Assembly (NCBI GenBank): GCA_001281695.1
Contig: LJIE01000003.1
Coordinates: 1 to 64,000 of the forward strand
Length of the DNA stretch: 64,000 nt
Direction of reading: 5' to 3'
Origin: a bacterium 336/3
Lineage (GTDB): Bacteria; Bacteroidota; Bacteroidia; Cytophagales; Thermonemataceae
Below are positions 10,637-37,314 of the stretch, one piece after another (position 1 is the stretch's first letter; every line of letters begins with the position of its first letter). Both the position numbers and the translations under genes were made by a program. A model generated the notes under the pieces. It saw only the letters and a list, made by a program, of their open reading frames with translations, had not been told where the DNA came from and ran no database searches.

Positions 10637-13600
10637 CTAAATTTTAACTATTTTGAATATATTATTACTAACAGGTGTGATTATTTCTACAATGTAGATA
10701 CCTTTTTCTAAGGATGAAATATCTATAGTCATTTGATTGCTATTATAAAAATTACCTTCTCTTACTTTTCTACCACTTAAATCATTGATTTGATATTGAT
10801 AGTTTGATTTTTGACTAGATTTAATGACTAATAATTTTTCTGTTGGGTTGGGAAATACTTCAAAAGAAACAACACCTCTTACAATTTCTAAAGTGTAAGA
10901 ATGTCTTTTACTACAAATACCATCTGTTACCAAAATAGTGAAATCATAAATACCTTCTGCAATAGGTATACCACTAATAACACCTGTTGATGTGTCTAAA
11001 TTTAAGCCAATGGGTAAACTACCTGAGTCAATAGACCAAATTGGTGTCCCCAATAAACCCACTTCTTCTAAAGTTTGAGTATAGGGTAAAGAGAGTAAGA
11101 TACTTGTTAGACTTACAGGAGTGATAGAAATATTAGGACAATTAATAGCAAAAGTATAGGTTTGTGATTTAGTACAACTTCCCTGAGTGGCTGTAACTGT
11201 ATAAGTTGTTAAAGGTACCTCTATATTAGAAACGCCAGAGATGATTCCTATACCACTTAAACTAATACCCGCTGGTAAAGAAGGACTTACAGAATAAGTA
11301 ATAAGTTGAGAATTTCCTATAACACTTGCATTGAGGTTAAATGTGAAACCTACCACTCCATTACTGGTTGTAGTGTTGGTGAAGGTAAGTGTAGGGCAAC
11401 TTACCACTATATTATAACTTTGTGATACACTACAAGCACCTTGTCTTGCTGTAATTGTATAAATGGCAGAGGCTGTTGCAGTAGTGGGTGTACCTGTAAT
11501 GATACCCGTGCTGGTATTTAAGAATAAACCTGAAGGCAATGCTGGTGTAACAGAATAGATAACAGCCTGAGTATTTCCTGTAACAGAAGCATCTAAACTA
11601 TAAGATGTTCCCACAACTGCATTACTGGCTATGGTATTAGTAAAAGTAATGTTAGGACAGTTTATGACAATTGTGTAAGCCCTTGAAGCCAAACAACCAT
11701 TACTGTTTGCTTGAATAGTGAAATTGAAGGTACCAATATCAGTAGGAATTCCTGAAATCACACCTGTAGAGTTATTTAAAGAAAGACCAAAGGGCAGTGT
11801 TCCCACACTCACAGACCAAGTAATTGTACCAACAGGTAAGCCTGTTTGGGTGATAGTTTGAGAATAGGCACTTCCCACAGTTCCATTAGGTAAAGTTGTG
11901 GGGTTCAAGGAGGCAGTAGGACAAACTACTGCAAAAGTGTATCCTTGAACAACACTACATACCCCAGCACTCTGAGACGCTGTAACTGTGTAAGTTGCTA
12001 AATCTGTTACAGCAATGGGAGTTCCTGTAATGATACCTGTGCTAGTATTCAAAGACAAACCTGTTGGAAGTGTGGGGTTTACAGAATAGTTAAGCATACC
12101 AGAGCTAGTTGTAGCACTTGCATTGAGTGTATAAGGAGTACCTACTGTAGCTGCATTGGCTGTTGTATTTGCAAAAGTGATAGTAGGACAACTACCAGAT
12201 ACACTTACTGCAAAAGTATAACTTTGTGATACACTACAAGCACCTTGTCTTGCTGTAACTGTATAAGTAGCAGAAGGTGTTGTGGTTGTGGGTGTACCTG
12301 TAATGATACCTGTGCTGGTATTTAACAATAGACCTGAAGGCAATGCTGGTGTAACAGAATAAGTAATCGTTGATGTATTTCCTGTAACACTTGCAATGAG
12401 GCTAAATGGAGAACCTACCTCTCCATTGCTGGTTGTGGTGTTGGTGAAAGTAAGTGTGGGGCAACTTACCACTATAGTATAAGTCTTTGTTTGTCTACAA
12501 CTGCCATCTGTTACTTGTATGGTAAAGTTAAATGTACCTATAGTTGTGGGTGTACCTGTTATAGTACCATTAATGGGATTGATAGCCAAACCAGTGGGCA
12601 ATGCTCCAGCACTAATAGACCATGTAGGCGAGCTTGCTAAACCTGTTTGGGAAATAGTTTGGCTGTATACTGTACCCACAATGCCTGAAGGCAATGCTCC
12701 AGCAGTAGGATTGATATTGATAACAGCACATGGAACAATTTTACTAACAAAAATATCCACATTACCAGCACTTATGAGGTTAAAAGTGCCTACTCCTGGG
12801 TCAAAATCAACTGTGCCACTAAAATAACCTGTGGTATAAACATTACCTGAGGCATCTACTGCAATACTGTTGCCTTTATCATGGTTTCCTCCCTCCATAC
12901 TTTTTGCCCATACAAAATTACCATTACCATCTAATTTGCTTACAAAGATATCTAAGTTACCAGAACTTATAAGGTTAAAAGTACCCACTCCTGGGTCAAA
13001 ATCTGCTGTGCCAACAAAAAAACCTGTGGTATACACATTACCTGAAACATCTACTGTAATGCTATAACTAGTCTCTTCATTTGTCCCTCCCATGCTTTTT
13101 GCCCACAAAAAGCCCCCATTAGCATCCAATTTACTCACAAAAATATCTCTAGTCCCTGCACTTGTAAGATTGAAAATACCTGCATTAGGGTCAAAATCAA
13201 TTGTGCCTTCAAAATAACCAGTAGTATACACATTACCCAAGGCATCTACTGTGATGATATTGCCATAAACCTCACTTGATCCTCCTTCTCCTCCCATTCT
13301 TTTAGCCCAGACCAAGTTACCATTGACATCTAATTTAGTTACAAAAATATCTAAGTTACCAGCACTTATAAGATTAAAAATACCTGAATTTGGGTCAAAA
13401 TCAACTGTACCAAAAAAATCGCCTGTGATATAAACATTACCTGAGACATCTAAAGCAATACCATAGCCCTGATCATACCATGTCCCTCCCATTCTTTTCG
13501 CCCAGATCAAGTTACCACTAGCATCTAATTTACTTACGAAAATATCGTAAACACCTGAACTTGTGAGATTAAAAGTACCTGTATTGGGGTCAAAATCAAC

Positions 13601-16084
13601 AGTGTCACTAAAATAACCTGTGGTATAAACATTACCTGAAGTATCTACTGTAATACTATTGCTGTTATCAAAACCTGAGCTTCCCATTCTTTTAGCCCAG
13701 ATCAAGTTGCCACTAGCATCTAATTTACTTACGAAAATATCGTAAGTACCAGCACTTGTGAGATTGAAGATGCCCGCATTGGGGTCAAAATCAACAGTAC
13801 CTGTAAAAGAACCTGTGATATACACATTATTAGAAGCATCAACAGCAATACCATAGCCATAACCATTATCTACTCCTTCTATTTTTTTAGCCCATACAAA
13901 ATTGCCATTTATATCTAATTTACTTATAAAAATATCTTTAATCCCAGTACCCGTAAGGTTGAAAGTACTTGTTCCTGGGTCAAAGTCAACTGTTCCTTCA
14001 AAATAACCTGTAGTATACACATTACCTGAGGCATCTACTGCGATGCTCTTACCAATTTCGTTGCTTACCCCTCCCATTCTTTTCGCCCATCCAAAGGCTT
14101 GTAAAAGAGCCACATTTACTGCAAATGTATAAGTCTGTGTTTGACTACAAGAGCCTTGTCTTGCTGTAACTGTATAAGTAGCAGAAGGTGTTGTGGTTGT
14201 GGGTGTACCTGTAATGATACCTGTGCTGGTATTTAAGAATAAACCTGAAGGCAAAACAGGTGTAATAGAATAGGTAATTGTTGTTGTGTTACCTGTAACA
14301 CTTGTATTGAGGCTAAATGGAGAACCTACCTCTCCGTTGGTGGCTGTGGTGTTGGTGAAAGTAAGTGTAGGACAGCCTATAGATATACTATAAGCCTGTG
14401 TTTGACTACAAGTACCATCTGTTACTTGTATGGTAAAATTAAATGTGCCTGCCACTGTTGATATACCTGAAATTACCCCACTGATAGGGTTGATAGCCAA
14501 ACCAGTGGGCAATGCTCCAGCACTGATAGACCATGTAGGCGAGCCTGCTAAACCTGTTTGGGAAATAGTTTGACTGTATGCTGTATTTACATCACCTGAA
14601 GGTAATACTCCCACAGCAGGGCTGATGATGATAGAAGCACATGGACTAATTTTACTTACAAAAATATCCACATTACCAGCACTAGTGAGGTTAAAAGTGC
14701 CTACTTCCGGGTCAAAATCAACTGTGTCAGTAAAATAACCTGTGGTATAGACATTACCCAAGGCATCTACAATAATGCCATGACCAACATCATTAACTAC
14801 TCCCCCTATGGCTTTTACCCACGTCAAATTACCATTAGTATCTAATTTACTCACAAAAATATCATGAATACCAGCACTAGTGAGGTTAAAAGTGCCTGCA
14901 TTAGGATCAAAATCAACTGTACCAAAAAATTGCCCTGTCGTATACACATTGCCAAAGGTATCTAATGTAATGTTATTGCTATAATCAGTTGCTCCACCTC
15001 CAATACGTTTCGCCCACACAAAATTTCCATTAATATCTAATTTACTTACAAAAATATCATCACCACCAGCACTAGTGAGATTGAAAGTGCCTGCATTGGG
15101 GTCAAAATCGGCTGTGCCATTAAAGATTCCAGTAGTATACACATTGCCTGAGGCATCGACTGTGATACTGTTGCCATAATCACCATTTGGTTCTCCTCCT
15201 CCCATTCTTTTAGCCCAGACCAAGTTGCCTGACGCATCTAATTTAGTTACAAAAATATCTAAGTTACCAGCACTTGTGAGATTGAAAGTACCTGCATTAG
15301 GGTCAAAATCAACAGTGCCAAAAAAGTTCCCTGTGATATAAACATTGCCTAAAGCATCTAAAGCTATGCTATTACCATCATCATACCACGTTCCTCCCAT
15401 ACTTTTCGCCCAAATCAAGTTACCATTAACATCTAATTTACTTACAAAAATATCGTCAACACCTGAACTTGTGAGATTGAAAGTGCCTGTATTAGGGTCA
15501 AAATCGGCTGTTCCACCAAAATAGCCTGTGGTATAAATATTTCCAGTAGCATCTAAAACAATATCATTGCCAACATCTATACTTGTTCCTCCCATTTTTT
15601 TCGCCCAGACCAAGTTGCCTGACGCATCTAATTTACTCACAAAAATATCTTGGTAATTTGTGCTTGCACTTGTGAGATTGAAAGTACCTGCATTGGGGTC
15701 AAAATCAACAGTGCCTGTAAAAGAACCTGTAATATATACATTACCTAAAGCATCTACAGCAATACCATAGCCATAATCATGATCTCCTCCTCCTATATTT
15801 TTAGCCCATATAAAATTGCCGTTGTCATCTAATTTACTTATAAAAATATCTCTATTACCTGCACTTGTAAGGCTGAAAGTACTTGTTCCTGGGTCAAAGT
15901 CAACTGTACCTTCAAAATAACCTATGGTATACACATTATTAGAAACATCAACAGCTATGTTACGTCCTTGTTCATGACTTGTTCCTCCCATACCTTTTGC
16001 CCATCCAAAAATTTGGGCGTTGGCGGTGTGTGCGAAAAATATCAGAAGACAATAAATAAAAAATAATTGGTAAGACCTTTGCAT
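10637..16084 (-). CDS. Giant T9SS cargo: two 7-bladed SBBP propellers plus Ig-like domains
   Basis: From the ATG at 16084 the protein is about 1815 residues. It has a signal peptide (MQRSYQLFFIYCLLIFF...ANA) and seven SBBP-type blades, each with WAK.(M/I)GG, GN(V/I)Y.TG and DFDP. Two Ig-like domains follow, then a second set of seven blades, seven more Ig-like domains (motifs such as LPTGLSINPISG and GTFNFTIQVTDG) and a C-terminal type A sorting domain (FEVFPNPTE, LSGRKV, KGIYIVEI). T9SS substrates with such ends are exported and anchored on the cell surface. The frame extends upstream to an ATG at 16159, but the predicted promoter and the signal peptide both favour 16084. Long repeats make assembly errors possible. 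Confidence 0.93.
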   Translation of the reverse strand: MQRSYQLFFIYCLLIFFAHTANAQIFGWAKGMGGTSHEQGRNIAVDVSNNVYTIGYFEGTVDFDPGTSTFSLTSAGNRDIFISKLDDNGNFIWAKNIGGGDHDYGYGIAVDALGNVYITGSFTGTVDFDPNAGTFNLTSASTNYQDIFVSKLDASGNLVWAKKMGGTSIDVGNDIVLDATGNIYTTGYFGGTADFDPNTGTFNLTSSGVDDIFVSKLDVNGNLIWAKSMGGTWYDDGNSIALDALGNVYITGNFFGTVDFDPNAGTFNLTSAGNLDIFVTKLDASGNLVWAKRMGGGEPNGDYGNSITVDASGNVYTTGIFNGTADFDPNAGTFNLTSAGGDDIFVSKLDINGNFVWAKRIGGGATDYSNNITLDTFGNVYTTGQFFGTVDFDPNAGTFNLTSAGIHDIFVSKLDTNGNLTWVKAIGGVVNDVGHGIIVDALGNVYTTGYFTDTVDFDPEVGTFNLTSAGNVDIFVSKISPCASIIISPAVGVLPSGDVNTAYSQTISQTGLAGSPTWSISAGALPTGLAINPISGVISGISTVAGTFNFTIQVTDGTCSQTQAYSISIGCPTLTFTNTTATNGEVGSPFSLNTSVTGNTTTITYSITPVLPSGLFLNTSTGIITGTPTTTTPSATYTVTARQGSCSQTQTYTFAVNVALLQAFGWAKRMGGVSNEIGKSIAVDASGNVYTTGYFEGTVDFDPGTSTFNLTGTGIKDIFISKLDINGNFVWAKKIEGVDNGYGYGIAVDASNNVYITGSFTGTVDFDPNAGIFNLTSAGTYDIFVSKLDASGNLIWAKRMGSSGFDNSNSITVDTSGNVYTTGYFSDTVDFDPNTGTFNLTSSGVYDIFVSKLDASGNLIWAKRMGGTWYDQGYGIALDVSGNVYITGDFFGTVDFDPNSGIFNLISAGNLDIFVTKLDVNGNLVWAKRMGGEGGSSEVYGNIITVDALGNVYTTGYFEGTIDFDPNAGIFNLTSAGTRDIFVSKLDANGGFLWAKSMGGTNEETSYSITVDVSGNVYTTGFFVGTADFDPGVGTFNLISSGNLDIFVSKLDGNGNFVWAKSMEGGNHDKGNSIAVDASGNVYTTGYFSGTVDFDPGVGTFNLISAGNVDIFVSKIVPCAVININPTAGALPSGIVGTVYSQTISQTGLASSPTWSISAGALPTGLAINPINGTITGTPTTIGTFNFTIQVTDGSCRQTKTYTIVVSCPTLTFTNTTTSNGEVGSPFSLIASVTGNTSTITYSVTPALPSGLLLNTSTGIITGTPTTTTPSATYTVTARQGACSVSQSYTFAVSVSGSCPTITFANTTANAATVGTPYTLNASATTSSGMLNYSVNPTLPTGLSLNTSTGIITGTPIAVTDLATYTVTASQSAGVCSVVQGYTFAVVCPTASLNPTTLPNGTVGSAYSQTITQTGLPVGTITWSVSVGTLPFGLSLNNSTGVISGIPTDIGTFNFTIQANSNGCLASRAYTIVINCPNITFTNTIASNAVVGTSYSLDASVTGNTQAVIYSVTPALPSGLFLNTSTGIITGTPTTATASAIYTITARQGACSVSQSYNIVVSCPTLTFTNTTTSNGVVGFTFNLNASVIGNSQLITYSVSPSLPAGISLSGIGIISGVSNIEVPLTTYTVTATQGSCTKSQTYTFAINCPNISITPVSLTSILLSLPYTQTLEEVGLLGTPIWSIDSGSLPIGLNLDTSTGVISGIPIAEGIYDFTILVTDGICSKRHSYTLEIVRGVVSFEVFPNPTEKLLVIKSSQKSNYQYQINDLSGRKVREGNFYNSNQMTIDISSLEKGIYIVEIITPVSNNIFKIVKI

Positions 16085-16128
16085 AAACAAAGAATTTGAA
16101 AGTTTTAATAGATAAAAATAAAATATCA

Positions 16129-16160
16129 CAAAATTAATCAATAAAAAGCTATGGAGCAAT
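16129..16160 (-). promoter_or_regulatory. Bacteroidota-type promoter of the giant propeller gene
   Basis: On the minus strand ATTG (16160-16157) is followed after 20 bp by TAATTTTG (16136-16129), matching the TTTG/TANNTTTG consensus with one change. The predicted transcript start near 16122 lies inside the longer frame and supports the start codon at 16084. Confidence 0.6.
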
Positions 16161-31946: not shown

Positions 31947-31974
31947 TAAAAAAGCTGACCATTGATCAGCTTTT
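31947..31974 (-). terminator. Intrinsic terminator of parAB
   Basis: The minus-strand stem AAAAGCTGA/TCAGCTTTT (9 bp, 7-base loop) runs into TTTTTTATTAC. The upstream arm overlaps the parB stop codon, so the parAB transcript ends immediately after parB. Confidence 0.85.
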
Positions 31975-32767
31975 AAATAGTTTTTTCAATTTCGAGCAAT
32001 TTTTCATAAGTATAATTTTTCAGTTTCTGCATAATATTTTCTAAAAGCTTCTCTTTTGTATCTTTCTTTTTCCCTTTGTTCTCTTTTGATACTTTTGGTA
32101 AATCTTGTTCTTCCTGAATTTTTTCAGCAAGCTTTTTTACAGACTTTTTATCTAAATTGACTGCTTCCTGAACAACACTTTGAGGTACTTTTATACTTTT
32201 ATTTAAAATTTTATCTTTGAGTTCTTTATTCCCTTCTGTGAGTTTATCAAGCCCTAGAGCAAATTTTTCATCTCTTATAATTGTATTACGAGAAACTTTA
32301 TGCTCTTCTGCTAATTTATCAACAGTTTTCAAGTTGCCATTTTGGGAACCTGATTTTTCTGTCTTCCTATCTCCTCCAAGCCCTTTTTTCTCTCGGTTGT
32401 ATTGCAAACCTCTCAAATAAGATTTTTGTAATTCTGTTAGGTTTCGTCTTCCTAGTTGATTAGAAATCATCCAATCCTTGACTACTTCGAAATTTTTAAA
32501 TTCCTTTAACCGAGTTTTATAGGGTAATCCATGTTTTTTACAAATAGAATAACGATTGTGCCCATCTACTAAAACCAATTCATTTCCATTTTCCCAAAGT
32601 AGAATAGGCTCTCTACACCCTTCTTCTATTATAGATTTTTCAAGCCCTTCAAGCTCTTCTTGTGTAAGAGGGGGGATTAGAGCTTGCAAATCAGGATAGA
32701 TAGTTATTTCTTCTATTTGTCCTGTATTATCTTGAATAATTTTTGAAAGAATATCTTTTTTAGCCAT
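31973..32767 (-). CDS. parB: ParB-family partition protein
   Basis: The 264-residue protein has an N-terminal ParB/Srx-type domain (QALIPPLTQEELEGLEKSI, then VDGHNRYSICKKHG, the nucleotide-binding loop). A central HTH follows (LKTVDKLAEEHKVSRNTIIRDEKFALGLDKL) and a lysine-rich C-terminal segment. It binds a centromere site on the replicon and loads partition complexes that ParA moves. Its start overlaps the parA stop by 8 bp, the standard parAB arrangement. A terminator overlaps its end. Compared with chromosomal ParB the HTH region resembles plasmid or transposon ParB/Spo0J-like regulators. Confidence 0.9.
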   Translation of the reverse strand: MAKKDILSKIIQDNTGQIEEITIYPDLQALIPPLTQEELEGLEKSIIEEGCREPILLWENGNELVLVDGHNRYSICKKHGLPYKTRLKEFKNFEVVKDWMISNQLGRRNLTELQKSYLRGLQYNREKKGLGGDRKTEKSGSQNGNLKTVDKLAEEHKVSRNTIIRDEKFALGLDKLTEGNKELKDKILNKSIKVPQSVVQEAVNLDKKSVKKLAEKIQEEQDLPKVSKENKGKKKDTKEKLLENIMQKLKNYTYEKLLEIEKTI

Positions 32768-33515
32768 TTTTTAAATTTTCTAGAATTTCTAAAGTAAGTG
32801 CATTGTAATCTTCTGCTCCCATAGATTCTGAGTCATAAGTAAATATGTCTTGATTATGTATAGAAGCTTCTGATATTTTTACATTTCTACGAATGAGAGT
32901 ATTAAGAACTTTATTTTTATACTTTTTACGCATTCCATCTATAACACTTTTATTTACAACTGTTCCATTAAATTGTGTAAATAAGATTCCTAAAAAATTA
33001 ACTTTAGGATTTAATTCCTCAACAATATCTTTATGGAGTTTCATAATTGTATTAAATCCTTTAACACTTAGGTATTCAGCTTGTGCAACAATTAGCATCT
33101 CTGTTGCAAATGTTAAAGCATTTACTGTTAACATTCCTAAGCTTGGAGGACAATCTATTAATACGAAATCGTATTTTATTGCAGTATCAGCTAACTTCTT
33201 TTTTAGTTTAGTATGACCTGCAAGAGTTTTTATTTGTAAATCTATTTCAGCCGCAGCCAAGTCAATATTAGCAGGTATTAAATCTAAATTTTTTGAAATT
33301 TTTATAATATTTGGTTTCTTATCTTCTATTAGGGTTTCATAAATGGTATTTTCTTCCACTTCTTTACCCAAACTTTGACTTAAGTTTCCTTGAGGATCTA
33401 AATCAATAAGTAAAACTTTTTTACTATTTACAGACAAAGCCTTTCCTAAATTAAGAGTTGTAGTTGTTTTACCAACCCCTCCCTTATGATTTACTACTGC
33501 AATAATTTTTGTCAT
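32760..33515 (-). CDS. parA: ParA-family partition ATPase
   Basis: The 251-residue deviant Walker ATPase has KGGVGKTTTT at residues 11-20, the Walker A' region LLIDLDPQGNLSQ, and Walker B DFVLIDCPPSLG. It has no N-terminal HTH extension, so it is a ParA of type Ib or chromosomal-like size that does not itself act as a long repressor. It drives segregation of the replicon with the overlapping parB gene. It is divergent from rep, with the iteron field between them. Start ATG at 33515 begins MTKIIAVVNHKGG, standard for the family. Confidence 0.95.
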   Translation of the reverse strand: MTKIIAVVNHKGGVGKTTTTLNLGKALSVNSKKVLLIDLDPQGNLSQSLGKEVEENTIYETLIEDKKPNIIKISKNLDLIPANIDLAAAEIDLQIKTLAGHTKLKKKLADTAIKYDFVLIDCPPSLGMLTVNALTFATEMLIVAQAEYLSVKGFNTIMKLHKDIVEELNPKVNFLGILFTQFNGTVVNKSVIDGMRKKYKNKVLNTLIRRNVKISEASIHNQDIFTYDSESMGAEDYNALTLEILENLKNG

Positions 33516-33743: not shown

Positions 33744-35180
33744 AAAAAAGACATTTTATCAGCCAAAAAAGACATTTTATCAGTTGAAAAAAGACATTTT
33801 ATCAGCCAAAAAAGACATTTTATCAGTTTGAAAAAGACATTTTATCAGCCAAAAAAGACATTAATATACTAAATGTCTTTATGTACCTAAAAAAGACATT
33901 TTATCAGTCAAAGAATAACCTTCTATAATATAAAACTATCTGCTTTTTTGGTTGAACACCAATATCTTAATCTCCAAAAAAGACATTTTATCAGCCAAAA
34001 AACAACCTTCTATAATATAAAACTATCTACTTTTTTAGTTGAACATCAACATCTTAATCTCCAAAAAAGACATTTTATCAGCCAAAGAATAATCTTCTAT
34101 AATATAAAACTATCCGCTTTTTTAGTTGAACACCAACATCTCAATCTCCAAAAAAGACATTTTATCAGTCAAGAAATAACTATCCTCGATAAGAAACAGC
34201 CTGCTTTTTAGTTGAACACTAACATCTTAGCCTCTAAAAAAGACATTTTATCAGTCAAAAAATAACTATCCGCAATAAGAAATGGGTTGTTTTTAACTTG
34301 AATATCAATATCTTAGTTTCTAAAAAAGACATTTTATCAGTCAAAGAATAACCTTCTATAATATAAAACTATCTGCTTTTTTAGTTGAATACCAATATCT
34401 TAGTTTCTAAAAAAGACATTTTATCAGTCAAAAAATAACCACCCATGATATAAAGCTATCTGCTTTTTTAGTTGAACACCAACATCTTAATCTCCAAAAA
34501 AGACATTTTATCAGTCAAAGAATAACCATCTATAATATAAAGCTATCTGCTTTTTTAGTTGAACACCAACATCTTAATCTCCAAAAAAGACATTTTATCA
34601 GTCAAAGAATAACCATCTATAATATAAAGCTATCTGCTTTTTTAGTTGAACACCAACATCTTAATCTCCAAAAAAGACATTTTATCAGTCAAAGAATAAC
34701 CATCTATAATATAAAGCTATCTGCTTTTTTAGTTGAACACCAACATCTTAATCTCCAAAAAAGACATTTTATCAGTCAAAGATTAAAAAAGACATTTTAT
34801 CAGTCAAAGAATAACCTTCTATAATATAAAACTATCTGCTTTTTTAGTTGAATACCAATATCTTAGTTTCTAAAAAAGACATTTTATCAGTCAAAAAATA
34901 ACCACCCATGATATAAAGCTATCTGCTTTTTTAGTTGAACACCAACATCTTAATCTCCAAAAAAGACATTTTATCAGTCAAAGAATAACCATCTATAATA
35001 TAAAGCTATCTGCTTTTTTAGTTGAACACCAACATCTTAATCTCCAAAAAAGACATTTTATCAGTCAAAGAATAACCATCTATAATATAAAGCTATCTGC
35101 TTTTTTAGTTGAATACCAATATCTTAATCTCCAAAAAAGACATTTTATCAGTCAAAAAAATACCCCTTAAAAAAGACATT
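33744..35180 (+). repeat. Iteron array upstream of rep, with an 87-bp satellite
   Basis: The 19-bp motif AAAAAAGACATTTTATCAG occurs 21 times intact plus two degenerate copies, all in one orientation. The first five are spaced 21-22 bp. From about 33895 the spacing becomes 86-87 bp, because each iteron sits in a long unit that also contains TAATATAAA(A/G)CTATC, TGCTTTTTTAGTTGAA and CCAACATCTTAAT. One extra iteron 28 bp after the copy at 34763 marks a tandem duplication of about 463 bp. The array ends just before the rep promoter. It is the probable Rep binding field and origin. Short reading frames inside it are translations of the repeat. Confidence 0.93.
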
Positions 35181-35188
35181 TGTAATTT

Positions 35189-35244: not shown

Positions 35245-36165
35245 ATGATGCTCTCTAGAATAAATGATAAACAAGAAATAAGACAATCAAATGTTTTGAC
35301 AGAAGCACGTTTTGAAATGAGTGCAACTGAACTAGATATATTATTTTACTTATTGAGTATTCTTAAGAAGGATTCTGAAACCAAAAAGTATCAAATACCC
35401 ATATTAGAACTCCAAAATATAACTCAAAAAGAATATCAATATACACAATTGAGAGAAGCAACAGAAAAGATGGGAAGTCGTATGTATGAATATAATTTAG
35501 ACAATGGAGATTACTTACAAATTTGGCTTTTTTCAAGTTGTTTATATAAAAAAGGTTTAGGGATTATAGAAATTGAATTATCAGAAAAAATCAAGCCATT
35601 TCTATTTGATTTAAGGGAAAGATTCACCTCTTTTCGTTTATATGCAGCTCTCAATATGTCTTCTAAATACGCAAAAAGAATATATACGATGTTATCTCAA
35701 TGGAAGGACAAAGGTGTATGGAAGATAAGTATAGAAGAAATGAAAATTAGACTAAAAATTCTTGATCCAAAGGGAAAAGAACCAGAACTCTATAAACAAA
35801 TAGTAGAATTAAAGCACAGAGTATTAGATCCAGCTATAAGCCAAATTAATAAATATACAGAGTTAAATGTTTCATATAAATTATTAAAAAGAGGAAGGAA
35901 ATTTCAGGATATTGAATTTGACATAGATGTACAAAATGATAAAGCAGTAGTTGATATAGATTTTAATCACAATTCTGAAGAACAAAGATGTTTAAAAAGT
36001 TTAGAAGAAATAGGAGTTGTGCGTAAGGATATAGTAAGTATAATAATAAAAGATGAAAGCTTACGTAAAAAGACTTTTAAATGGGTTTATGAATGGAAAT
36101 TAGGAAAATTTGGCAAAGTAGGCAATCCTGCTGGGTTATACTTAAAAACAATGGGATTAGTATGA
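35245..36165 (+). CDS. Rep_3-family plasmid replication initiator
   Basis: The 306-residue initiator is made of two winged-helix domains. The first has NVLTEARFEMSATELDILFYLLS. The second has LYAALNMSSKYAKRIYTMLSQW, then ISIEEMKIRLKI and LKHRVLDPAISQINKYTELNVSYKLLKRGRKFQDIEFDI, typical of RepB/Rep_3 proteins that bind iterons and open the origin. The size (about 300) is normal. A long C-terminal extension is not present. It is flanked by a direct iteron array upstream and an inverted array downstream. The start ATG at 35245 could be replaced by the next codon, also ATG. Confidence 0.93.
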   Translation: MMLSRINDKQEIRQSNVLTEARFEMSATELDILFYLLSILKKDSETKKYQIPILELQNITQKEYQYTQLREATEKMGSRMYEYNLDNGDYLQIWLFSSCLYKKGLGIIEIELSEKIKPFLFDLRERFTSFRLYAALNMSSKYAKRIYTMLSQWKDKGVWKISIEEMKIRLKILDPKGKEPELYKQIVELKHRVLDPAISQINKYTELNVSYKLLKRGRKFQDIEFDIDVQNDKAVVDIDFNHNSEEQRCLKSLEEIGVVRKDIVSIIIKDESLRKKTFKWVYEWKLGKFGKVGNPAGLYLKTMGLV

Positions 36166-36218: not shown

Positions 36219-37225
36219 CTGATAAAATGTCTTTTTTAGGATAAGTTTACTTGTAAAAAGAGTTTTTATAAGCCTAATCGAAAAATTTAATCTTCTAAAA
36301 AGGAGGTTTTCTAAGTCAAAACATTCATGGATATTTTCTGTTTTTTGACTGATAAAATGTGTTTTTTCGCTTGTAAGTATTTGATAAATAATGTTTTATT
36401 TTTATAATAATTTTTTTAATTTATCTGGTTTTACAACATTTTACCCACTCTTGACAAATATTTTCTGTTTTTCGACTGATACGCTGTCTTTTTTAGAAAT
36501 AAAAGTACTCATCCTCAAAGGTTTAAGTTTCTAAAAGGGAGGTTTTCTAAGCTAAAATTTAACGGATAATTTCTGTTTTTTCACTGATGAAATGTCTTTT
36601 CTAGGACATAGACATACTTGTAAAAGAGTTTTTATAAGTTTGATTGAGGCAACTTAGCTATGCTAAAAGGGAGGTTTCCTAAGCCAAAATCCTGACTGAT
36701 ACGCTGTCTTTTTTAGAAATAAAAGTACTCATCCTCAAAGATTTAAGTGTCTAAAAGGGAGGTTTTCTAAGTCAAAGCATTCACGGATAATTTCTGTTTT
36801 TTGACTGATGAAATGTCTTTTTTAGGACATAGATATACCTGTAAAAAGAGTTTTTATAAGCTTGATTAAGAAAATTTAACTATCTAAAAGGGAGGGCGGT
36901 CTAAGCCAAAGTCTTTGACGGATATTTTCTGTTTTTTGACTTATAAAAAGTGTTTTTTCGTTTTTAAATCATTGATTTACTGAATTTTATTTGATCAGTC
37001 TTTTAGAATATATTTCTATTTCCAGTTTGGTTTTTGCAACATTTCCCCCACTTTTTGACTGATACGCTGTCTTTTTTGAAAGTGGTTTTGGAGTTAAAAA
37101 AGAGTTTTTATAAGCCTATATGAGTTAATTGAGAACTCATAGTCAGTGATTTAACTATCTAAAAAGGAGGTTTTCTAAGCCAAAGTATTCACGGATAATT
37201 TCTGTTTTTTCGCTGATTCGATAGA
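36219..37225 (-). repeat. Inverted, diverged iteron array downstream of rep
   Basis: Nine copies of the reverse iteron, best CTGATAAAATGTCTTTTTTAG, start at 36219, 36349, 36476, 36584, 36696, 36805, 36940, 37059 and 37213. Some read CTGATACGCTGTCTTTTTT. Each sits in a unit with two other conserved pieces: AAAAGGGAGGTTTTCTAAG and GTAAAAAGAGTTTTTATAAG. A higher-order step of about 220 bp is visible (36473 versus 36693). No gene is encoded in the 1.2-kb gap after rep. The array probably binds Rep and may serve copy-number control or a second origin component. Confidence 0.85.
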
Positions 37226-37314
37226 GAAATATGTAAACATTTGGCTTTTTTTCAAAAGACATTTCTAAAATCTTGAATTTTTTATGTTTTCTTACAAGCT
37301 GAATATCATAGAGA

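Follow-up and report, generated by a model that had tools for sequence, protein, structure and literature searches.

Downstream of the gene for its replication initiator, contig C3 of this genome carries a second field of iteron-like sites, and the question that this locus raises is which initiator, or which initiators, such sites are there for. The window, that is, the whole stretch of DNA analyzed, comprises bases 1-64,000 of C3 (120,458 bp), and it belongs to a genome of 4,714,744 bases in 13 contigs. Six Rep_3 matches are present in this genome, one apiece on C3, C4, C5, C7, C8, and C10. The replicon genes of C3 and the sites that surround them are as follows.

31973-32767, minus strand: ParB-like gene, 264 aa (NCBIfam TIGR00180 parB_part at 2.9e-5, under the cut-off; no Pfam match)
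32760-33515, minus strand: parA (PF13614 AAA_31, 2.3e-50)
33744-33848, plus strand: five tight ori iterons, direct, with steps of 21/22 bp
33854-33880, no strand assigned: half-iteron inverted repeat AAAGACATT / AATGTCTTT, seen in the sequence and putatively operator-like
33889-35151, plus strand: 16 more own iterons, in an 87-bp satellite
35169-35181, plus strand: half-iteron AAAAAAGACATTT, seen in the sequence 5' of rep and near it
35245-36165, plus strand: rep, Rep_3 initiator of 306 aa (PF01051, 1.6e-30; PF21205, 2.9e-13)
36219-37231, minus strand: mosaic array with nine anchor positions (mismatch search, relatives' matrix, and sequence)

The rep product matches both the WH1 and the WH2 domains, confirming that the gene between the two arrays encodes a Rep_3 initiator, as a first reading of the sequence alone had proposed. 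Solved relatives of this protein include RepE, pi, and RepA. The tight direct iterons found 5' of rep, in five copies, are those of a Rep_3 iteron replicon. The own iterons upstream of rep number 21, 20 of which are identical across 19 bases. In the satellite, where 14 of the 16 units were compared, the site shows 0 differences out of 1729 versus 0.208 in the spacers. Because the 16 satellite iterons lie between the operator-like repeat and rep, this repeat stands about 1.36 kb from the gene. Elsewhere in the window, a 195/390-bp repeat forms two arrays (12740-16009) within an open frame of 1840 aa (10637-16159).

The sequence-only reading described the downstream field as nine inverted copies of the iteron core, carried with a step of about 110 or 220 bp. 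Nine anchor positions are indeed found on the minus strand, far above the shuffle expectation, starting at 36219, 36349, 36476, 36584, 36696, 36805, 36940, 37059, and 37213, so that C3 has iterons downstream of rep as in the F incC and P1 incA type. The periodicity is looser than described, since the steps between anchors are 130, 127, 108, 112, 109, 135, 119, and 154 bp; a super-unit of 220 bp is seen at 36474-36895. The copies are also less uniform: the exact upstream iteron, with core CTGATAAAATGTCTTTTTT, occurs once, the ACGC core (CTGATACGCTGTC) is found in three anchors, four are other variants, and one is a remnant. The strict alternation of the ACGC core from copy to copy is not borne out.

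A chance origin of the downstream sites was ruled out by shuffles. In the 64-kb window, 30 sites match AAAAAAGACATTTTATCAG with at most three mismatches (21 upstream, eight downstream anchors, and one plus-strand site at 37096), whereas 0.22 were expected and the maximum was 3 in 100 shuffles. We also built a 19-position matrix from the iterons of relatives and took 100 dinucleotide shuffles as background. Between 36166 and 37265, this matrix detects 17 sites on both strands at a score of at least 8 bits (shuffle mean 0.35, maximum 3 in 100 shuffles) and 20 sites at a score of at least 4 bits (shuffle mean 1.24). The two classes of site suggested earlier are too few, as the array also holds plus-strand sites and a second set of minus-strand sites, of several types.

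36219, minus strand: anchor of the own type, AGACA..CAG, exact
36349, minus strand: anchor, ACACA..CAG
36476, 36696, 37059, minus strand: class B anchors (centre GCG; CTGATACGCTGTC), own type
36584, 36805, minus strand: anchors of the TTTCAT form, own type
36940, minus strand: class D anchor, ACACT..AAG
37213, minus strand: anchor remnant, ATCAG alone kept
36328, 36455, 36563, 36784, 36919, 37192 (span 36328-37210), minus strand: class C, ACAGA..CCG and variants
36254, 36620, 36842, 37096 (span 36254-37114), plus strand: class E, AGAGT..AAG
36297, 36533, 36665, 36753, 37161 (span 36297-37179), plus strand: class F, GGAGG..AAG
36886-36905, plus strand: class F with centre GCGG

In a typical unit, the anchor is accompanied by a class C site at a distance of 21 bp and by an inverted F site; some units have an inverted E site as well. 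Such a class C partner is seen for six anchors out of nine and is degenerate in two cases. Runs of three or more like iterons in tandem do not occur downstream, where the sites form at most pairs of unlike types, 21 bp apart. Several of these classes resemble the iterons of other bacteria. Class D matches the Arcicella (L099) ori iterons at all 19 bases, the class E box is the box in the ori iterons of Spirosoma rhododendri (L173), and the class F box is that in the ori iterons of the Hymenobacter monticola plasmid unnamed3 (L193). Class C is close to the ACAGT..AAG of L149, and its end is that of the Spirosoma linguale pSLIN06 iterons.

To relate sites to initiators, we derived a residue-to-base code from 17 Reps, less than 80% identical to one another, and their native iterons. 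These iterons comprise an A-tract, a five-base box, a centre, and an end, the majority end being AAG or CAG. The matrix iterons were chosen by a pattern that fixed most of bases 12-16, and conservation at these bases is therefore partly by construction; for this reason, the centre comparison given below relies on a separate set of ori arrays. Across the 17 Reps, four iteron bases pair with four Rep residues with zero exceptions.

Base 7 with residue 188: G for D, E, S; C for Q; A for M, L; T for A
Base 6 with residue 185: C for R, N, S; A for Q, K
Base 9 with residue 192: C for K, R; G for F, Y, N
Base 17 with residue 65: C for H, Q; A for N

For bases 7, 6, 9, and 17, the score of the best of 259 columns was matched in 0, 12, 27, and 8 shuffles out of 2000, respectively; these shuffles ignore the kinship among the 17 Reps. 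Base 10 pairs less cleanly, with residue 162 (27 of 2000 shuffles). In a held-out test on eight independent Reps, whose iteron registers were set by eye, 22 of 24 predictions were correct versus nine when the commonest base was used. A register taken from the non-code positions alone agrees for five of the eight Reps (L081, L088, L172, L173, and L175), and for those five, 13 of 14 predictions are correct; the same rule places C7 and L054 elsewhere and ranks the register of L177 second best. The code misses L088 (K185) and L177 (N65), as well as L080 (S188), a near-duplicate outside the count, and the L193 Rep has residues at three positions that are absent from the training set. Residues 185-192 are located within the WH2 match and residue 65 within the WH1 match, and the two domains would therefore read the two blocks of the site. 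RepE has a recognition helix. Some Hymenobacter ori arrays hold mixed boxes, such as CGACT and CTACC in L093, which implies that Rep specificity may be relaxed. For this Bacteroidota plasmid family, such a code could allow a sequence-based prediction of iteron specificity and of compatibility, and it makes a cross-plasmid action of the array testable.

According to this code, the C3 Rep (Q185, E188, R192, and Q65) is predicted to suit its own type and class B. The C8 Rep (Q, Q, R, and N at 185, 188, 192, and 65) is predicted to suit the C8 type and, except for base 10, class D, and the C5 Rep (R, A, K, and N at the same residues) the C5 type; C4 and C7 carry other iterons. The four code bases of the C3 Rep are kept at six of the nine anchors but not at 36349 nor in classes D, C, E, and F, and classes C, E, and F suit none of the three close resident Reps (C3, C5, and C8). 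By the code, only a part of the array suits its own Rep; other sites are identical or similar to iterons of the co-resident plasmids C5 and C8 or of plasmids from Arcicella, Spirosoma, and Hymenobacter. The earlier picture of a Rep framed by oppositely oriented binding fields agrees, by the code, with these six anchors and has to be widened to several site types on both strands. A second field made simply for the C3 Rep is not supported, as some sites suit no C3, C5, or C8 Rep or match the iterons of other plasmids, and as the same array family is also found on C6, apparently an unrelated replicon.

C6 carries the mosaic at both ends, C8 at its start, and C9 at its end. A DNA search gave 29 matches, all on C3, C6, C8, and C9 (40 of 114 candidates scored). 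In the host genome, class B sites and exact class C sites are confined to these four contigs, and an assembly or IS repeat was rejected as their source on this ground. A general iteron pattern gives 52 matches in the genome, one of them on C1 (4.1 Mb). Since the array ends on C6, C8, and C9 are contig ends, those three arrays are incomplete. The final 59 bases are common to C6 and C9, and we infer from the end sequences that C8 and C9 are joined and that C6 forms a separate circle.

The own genes of C6 are parA and a gene for a 365-aa protein without family match above the cut-off. Directly behind the latter lie 13 repeats TGTTACTAACTCACCACC (10 exact, three with one mismatch; gene and repeats at 1579-3438 of L009), which are found nowhere else in the genome with up to two mismatches. 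Three Bacteroidota plasmids encode distantly related proteins with hypothetical annotations, and the 365-aa protein is perhaps an undescribed plasmid initiator type of Bacteroidota; its role as the C6 initiator is put forward conditionally, because on the plasmid of one such relative (Chryseobacterium) a RepB is annotated separately. The replication system of C6 appears to be unrelated and to use very different iterons, and if the 365-aa protein is its initiator, the C6 array would be wholly foreign to C6 replication. Among C2-C13, the iterons of C6, C7, and C10 occur on their own contigs only, at one mismatch. A single C4 iteron with one mismatch lies on C7 (G000:C7:17763). C10 has three repeats AAATAGATAACGCTTTTG behind rep, spaced about 117-119 bp (L031, C10 ends), and the own iterons of C4 and C5 are also widely spaced behind rep, so that such spacing looks common in this strain.

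The sites, their presence on C3, C6, C8, and C9, the covariation of residues with bases, and the conservation described below are computed results, from which we infer Rep binding, handcuffing, and any effect on copy number or compatibility. The reading that we favor, with a confidence that is evenly balanced, is that the array is a selected, polyspecific Rep-binding control array of the inc-like kind that would act across plasmids. Units of about 110-170 bp combine a variable anchor, in most cases with a class C site at a distance of 21 bp, with F and E sites in inverted orientation. Jointly, these sites would cover the specificity of the own Rep, that of two further Reps of the same cell, and those of Rep types absent from the genome. 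Reps of resident or incoming related plasmids would bind these sites and be titrated, or handcuffed to their own origins, and the array would thereby limit, couple, or exclude replication, across plasmids as well as within C3. Titration or handcuffing of several Reps is proposed by analogy with F, P1, V. cholerae ori2, and SGI1. Control of the plasmid's own copy number may be a further role of the array, given the six anchors that suit its Rep. The plasmids from which the arrays hold iterons are all resident in this cell, so that no exclusion is evident, and the few extra sites may be minor beside the 21 own iterons on C3.

Handcuffing had already been raised from the sequence alone, and it is a reasonable proposal since iterons flanking rep with a downstream control array are the known layout of F incC and P1 incA. 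A two-part origin, raised along with it, is not indicated: the 21-bp pairs are of unlike type, and the C and F centres vary, whereas the centres of ori arrays are uniform. Another possibility, which we regard as doubtful, is that of an iteron library directed against other plasmids, in which many specificities would have been collected to titrate or handcuff resident and incoming initiators. Such a library would serve plasmid competition or a shared government of copy number, even when carried by an unrelated replicon like C6, and its sites would have been gained and then switched at the few bases deciding which Rep binds.

It is unlikely that we are dealing with an ordinary array of the incC/incA type, used by the own Rep alone for copy-number control, with variants that are weakened own sites. 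Its position 3' of rep is that described for F and P1 in the relevant passages of PMC13028717 and PMC10999674, and the own code bases are kept at the six anchors. However, the mosaic is also on C6, whose own repeats are unrelated, and it contains there exact iterons of C5 (C6:190) and of C3 (C6:67). The mosaic arrays further hold exact C3 iterons at C8:132 and C9:16250 and an exact C8 iteron at C8:207. Moreover, the contact blocks of classes C and F are conserved though unsuited to the own Rep.

This conservation was quantified on aligned units, of which there were 15, after four of them (C3_36476, which bears a degenerate C site, C3_36696, C3_37059, and C6_1) had been left out as not alignable over their full length. 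Over 39 between-plasmid pairs of the remaining units, the differences amount to 0.069 for class C, 0.117 for class F, 0.214 for class E, which is absent from some units, 0.219 for the anchors, and 0.352 for the spacers. Class C is invariant over the 39 pairs at bases 1-10 and 14-18, with differences of 0.15 at base 19 and of 0.36-0.41 at bases 11-13. For class F, the values are 0.46-0.49 in the centre and 0.21, 0.21, and 0.41 at three other positions, the remainder being invariant. In comparison, the centre is nearly uniform in ori arrays (0.016-0.048 off consensus in 63 copies from 11 tight arrays, out of 13 arrays tried). The anchors are most variable at bases 7 (0.67), 10 (0.41), 17 (0.41), and 12-14 (0.31-0.46), over a background difference of 0.15 that comes from the remnant unit. 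A column-shift control passes narrowly, with 0.152 for the sites versus a minimum of 0.154 for the circular shifts (0 of 129). We read these values as selection for a two-block protein contact in which the centre is not needed and the anchors as switched at specificity bases.

The same data bear on the idea, which we consider improbable, that the array is a relic without present function, in which the arrays of past plasmids were mixed and spread by recombination among co-resident plasmids. Sites have been gained and lost, as illustrated by the C5-type site, intact in C6 and decayed in C9, by the remnant at 37213, and by the units that miss E. Nevertheless, the contact blocks are fixed while the three-base centre drifts at the spacer rate, which recombination alone would not give, and this pattern makes a relic less likely. 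Finally, we give a low probability to hitch-hiking, in which Reps would bridge the array to other plasmids in a pairing that would serve joint partition or stability and not copy control. The C6 and C8 arrays directly adjoin par genes, and PMC10954446 describes parS mimics by which SGI1 exploits its helper and displaces it, but the C3 array and the par genes are on opposite sides of rep. The array as a ParB centromere, considered from its place beside the par genes on C6 and C8, was not favored, as the C3 array does not adjoin par.

We then looked outside this genome. The array was seen in the host genome alone: none of 389 other genomes from the order contains class B, a blastn search of 72,556 plasmid records with the array gave no match, and classes C and F were found in none of the viral contigs. 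In the loci of 81 relatives, there was no mixed array at a score of at least 13 bits among the matches listed, with at most 14 sites in a list, the 700 bases before rep being scored as counts. Five H. monticola plasmids have site clusters by their own rep and two lone sites, and no mixed array was detected in them with a search pattern that would miss other centres. Lone sites of another type occur in relatives' loci L105 (994-1012) and L145 (3657-3675), and, some 1160 bases ahead of rep, in L162-L164 and L167; one example is a Pontibacter ummariensis contig with an iteron exactly of the Dyadobacter type (L092). G006 and G007 are genomes of the same family as the host genome. A class C site in Thermonema (G006, one of 28 other relatives) is single, in a coding region (ribF by eye), and without an array, and was taken as chance. 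The iterons of a Thermonema rossianum locus (L106) resemble those of G007, which makes it probable that this family is the one to which Thermonema belongs, in the order Cytophagales. In the open-licence literature surveyed, neither mixed-specificity iteron arrays nor such a residue-base code are described; inc-type arrays are known, and a polyspecific one on several plasmid contigs of one cell is new within that literature.

Incompatibility is usually described replicon by replicon, with one Rep and one iteron type. If the polyspecific control array that we favor is real, plasmids of one cell would affect one another's replication beyond the bounds of single incompatibility groups. In P1, the iterons downstream of the initiator gene are known as incA.

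How far the C3 array resembles known systems can be judged on four cases. The passages of PMC13028717 on F describe incC as five RepE iterons 3' of the Rep_3 initiator gene, which exert negative control and incompatibility. The C3 array likewise lies downstream of a Rep_3 gene, but, unlike the five RepE iterons, it consists of several site types on both strands and is common to other plasmid contigs. For P1 (IncY), the passages of PMC10999674 on repA describe two groups of 19-bp RepA iterons that flank the initiator gene and set incompatibility. Iteron groups are also found on both sides of the initiator gene here; however, both P1 groups are RepA sites, whereas specificity is mixed here and the steps are of 108-154 bp. 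The 39-mers of Vibrio cholerae ori2-inc, bound by RctB, are inhibitory and unlike the ori iterons, and they work through titration and handcuffing, as stated in the corresponding passages of PMC6090056. Those 39-mers serve one initiator and have no similarity to its iterons, whereas the sites here are iteron-like and would suit several initiators. Finally, the parS mimics that SGI1 carries against IncC plasmids (PMC10954446) illustrate that sites for the maintenance protein of another replicon can destabilise that replicon. The SGI1 mimics are partition sites, whereas those described here are predicted replication-initiator sites, with several kinds in each array.
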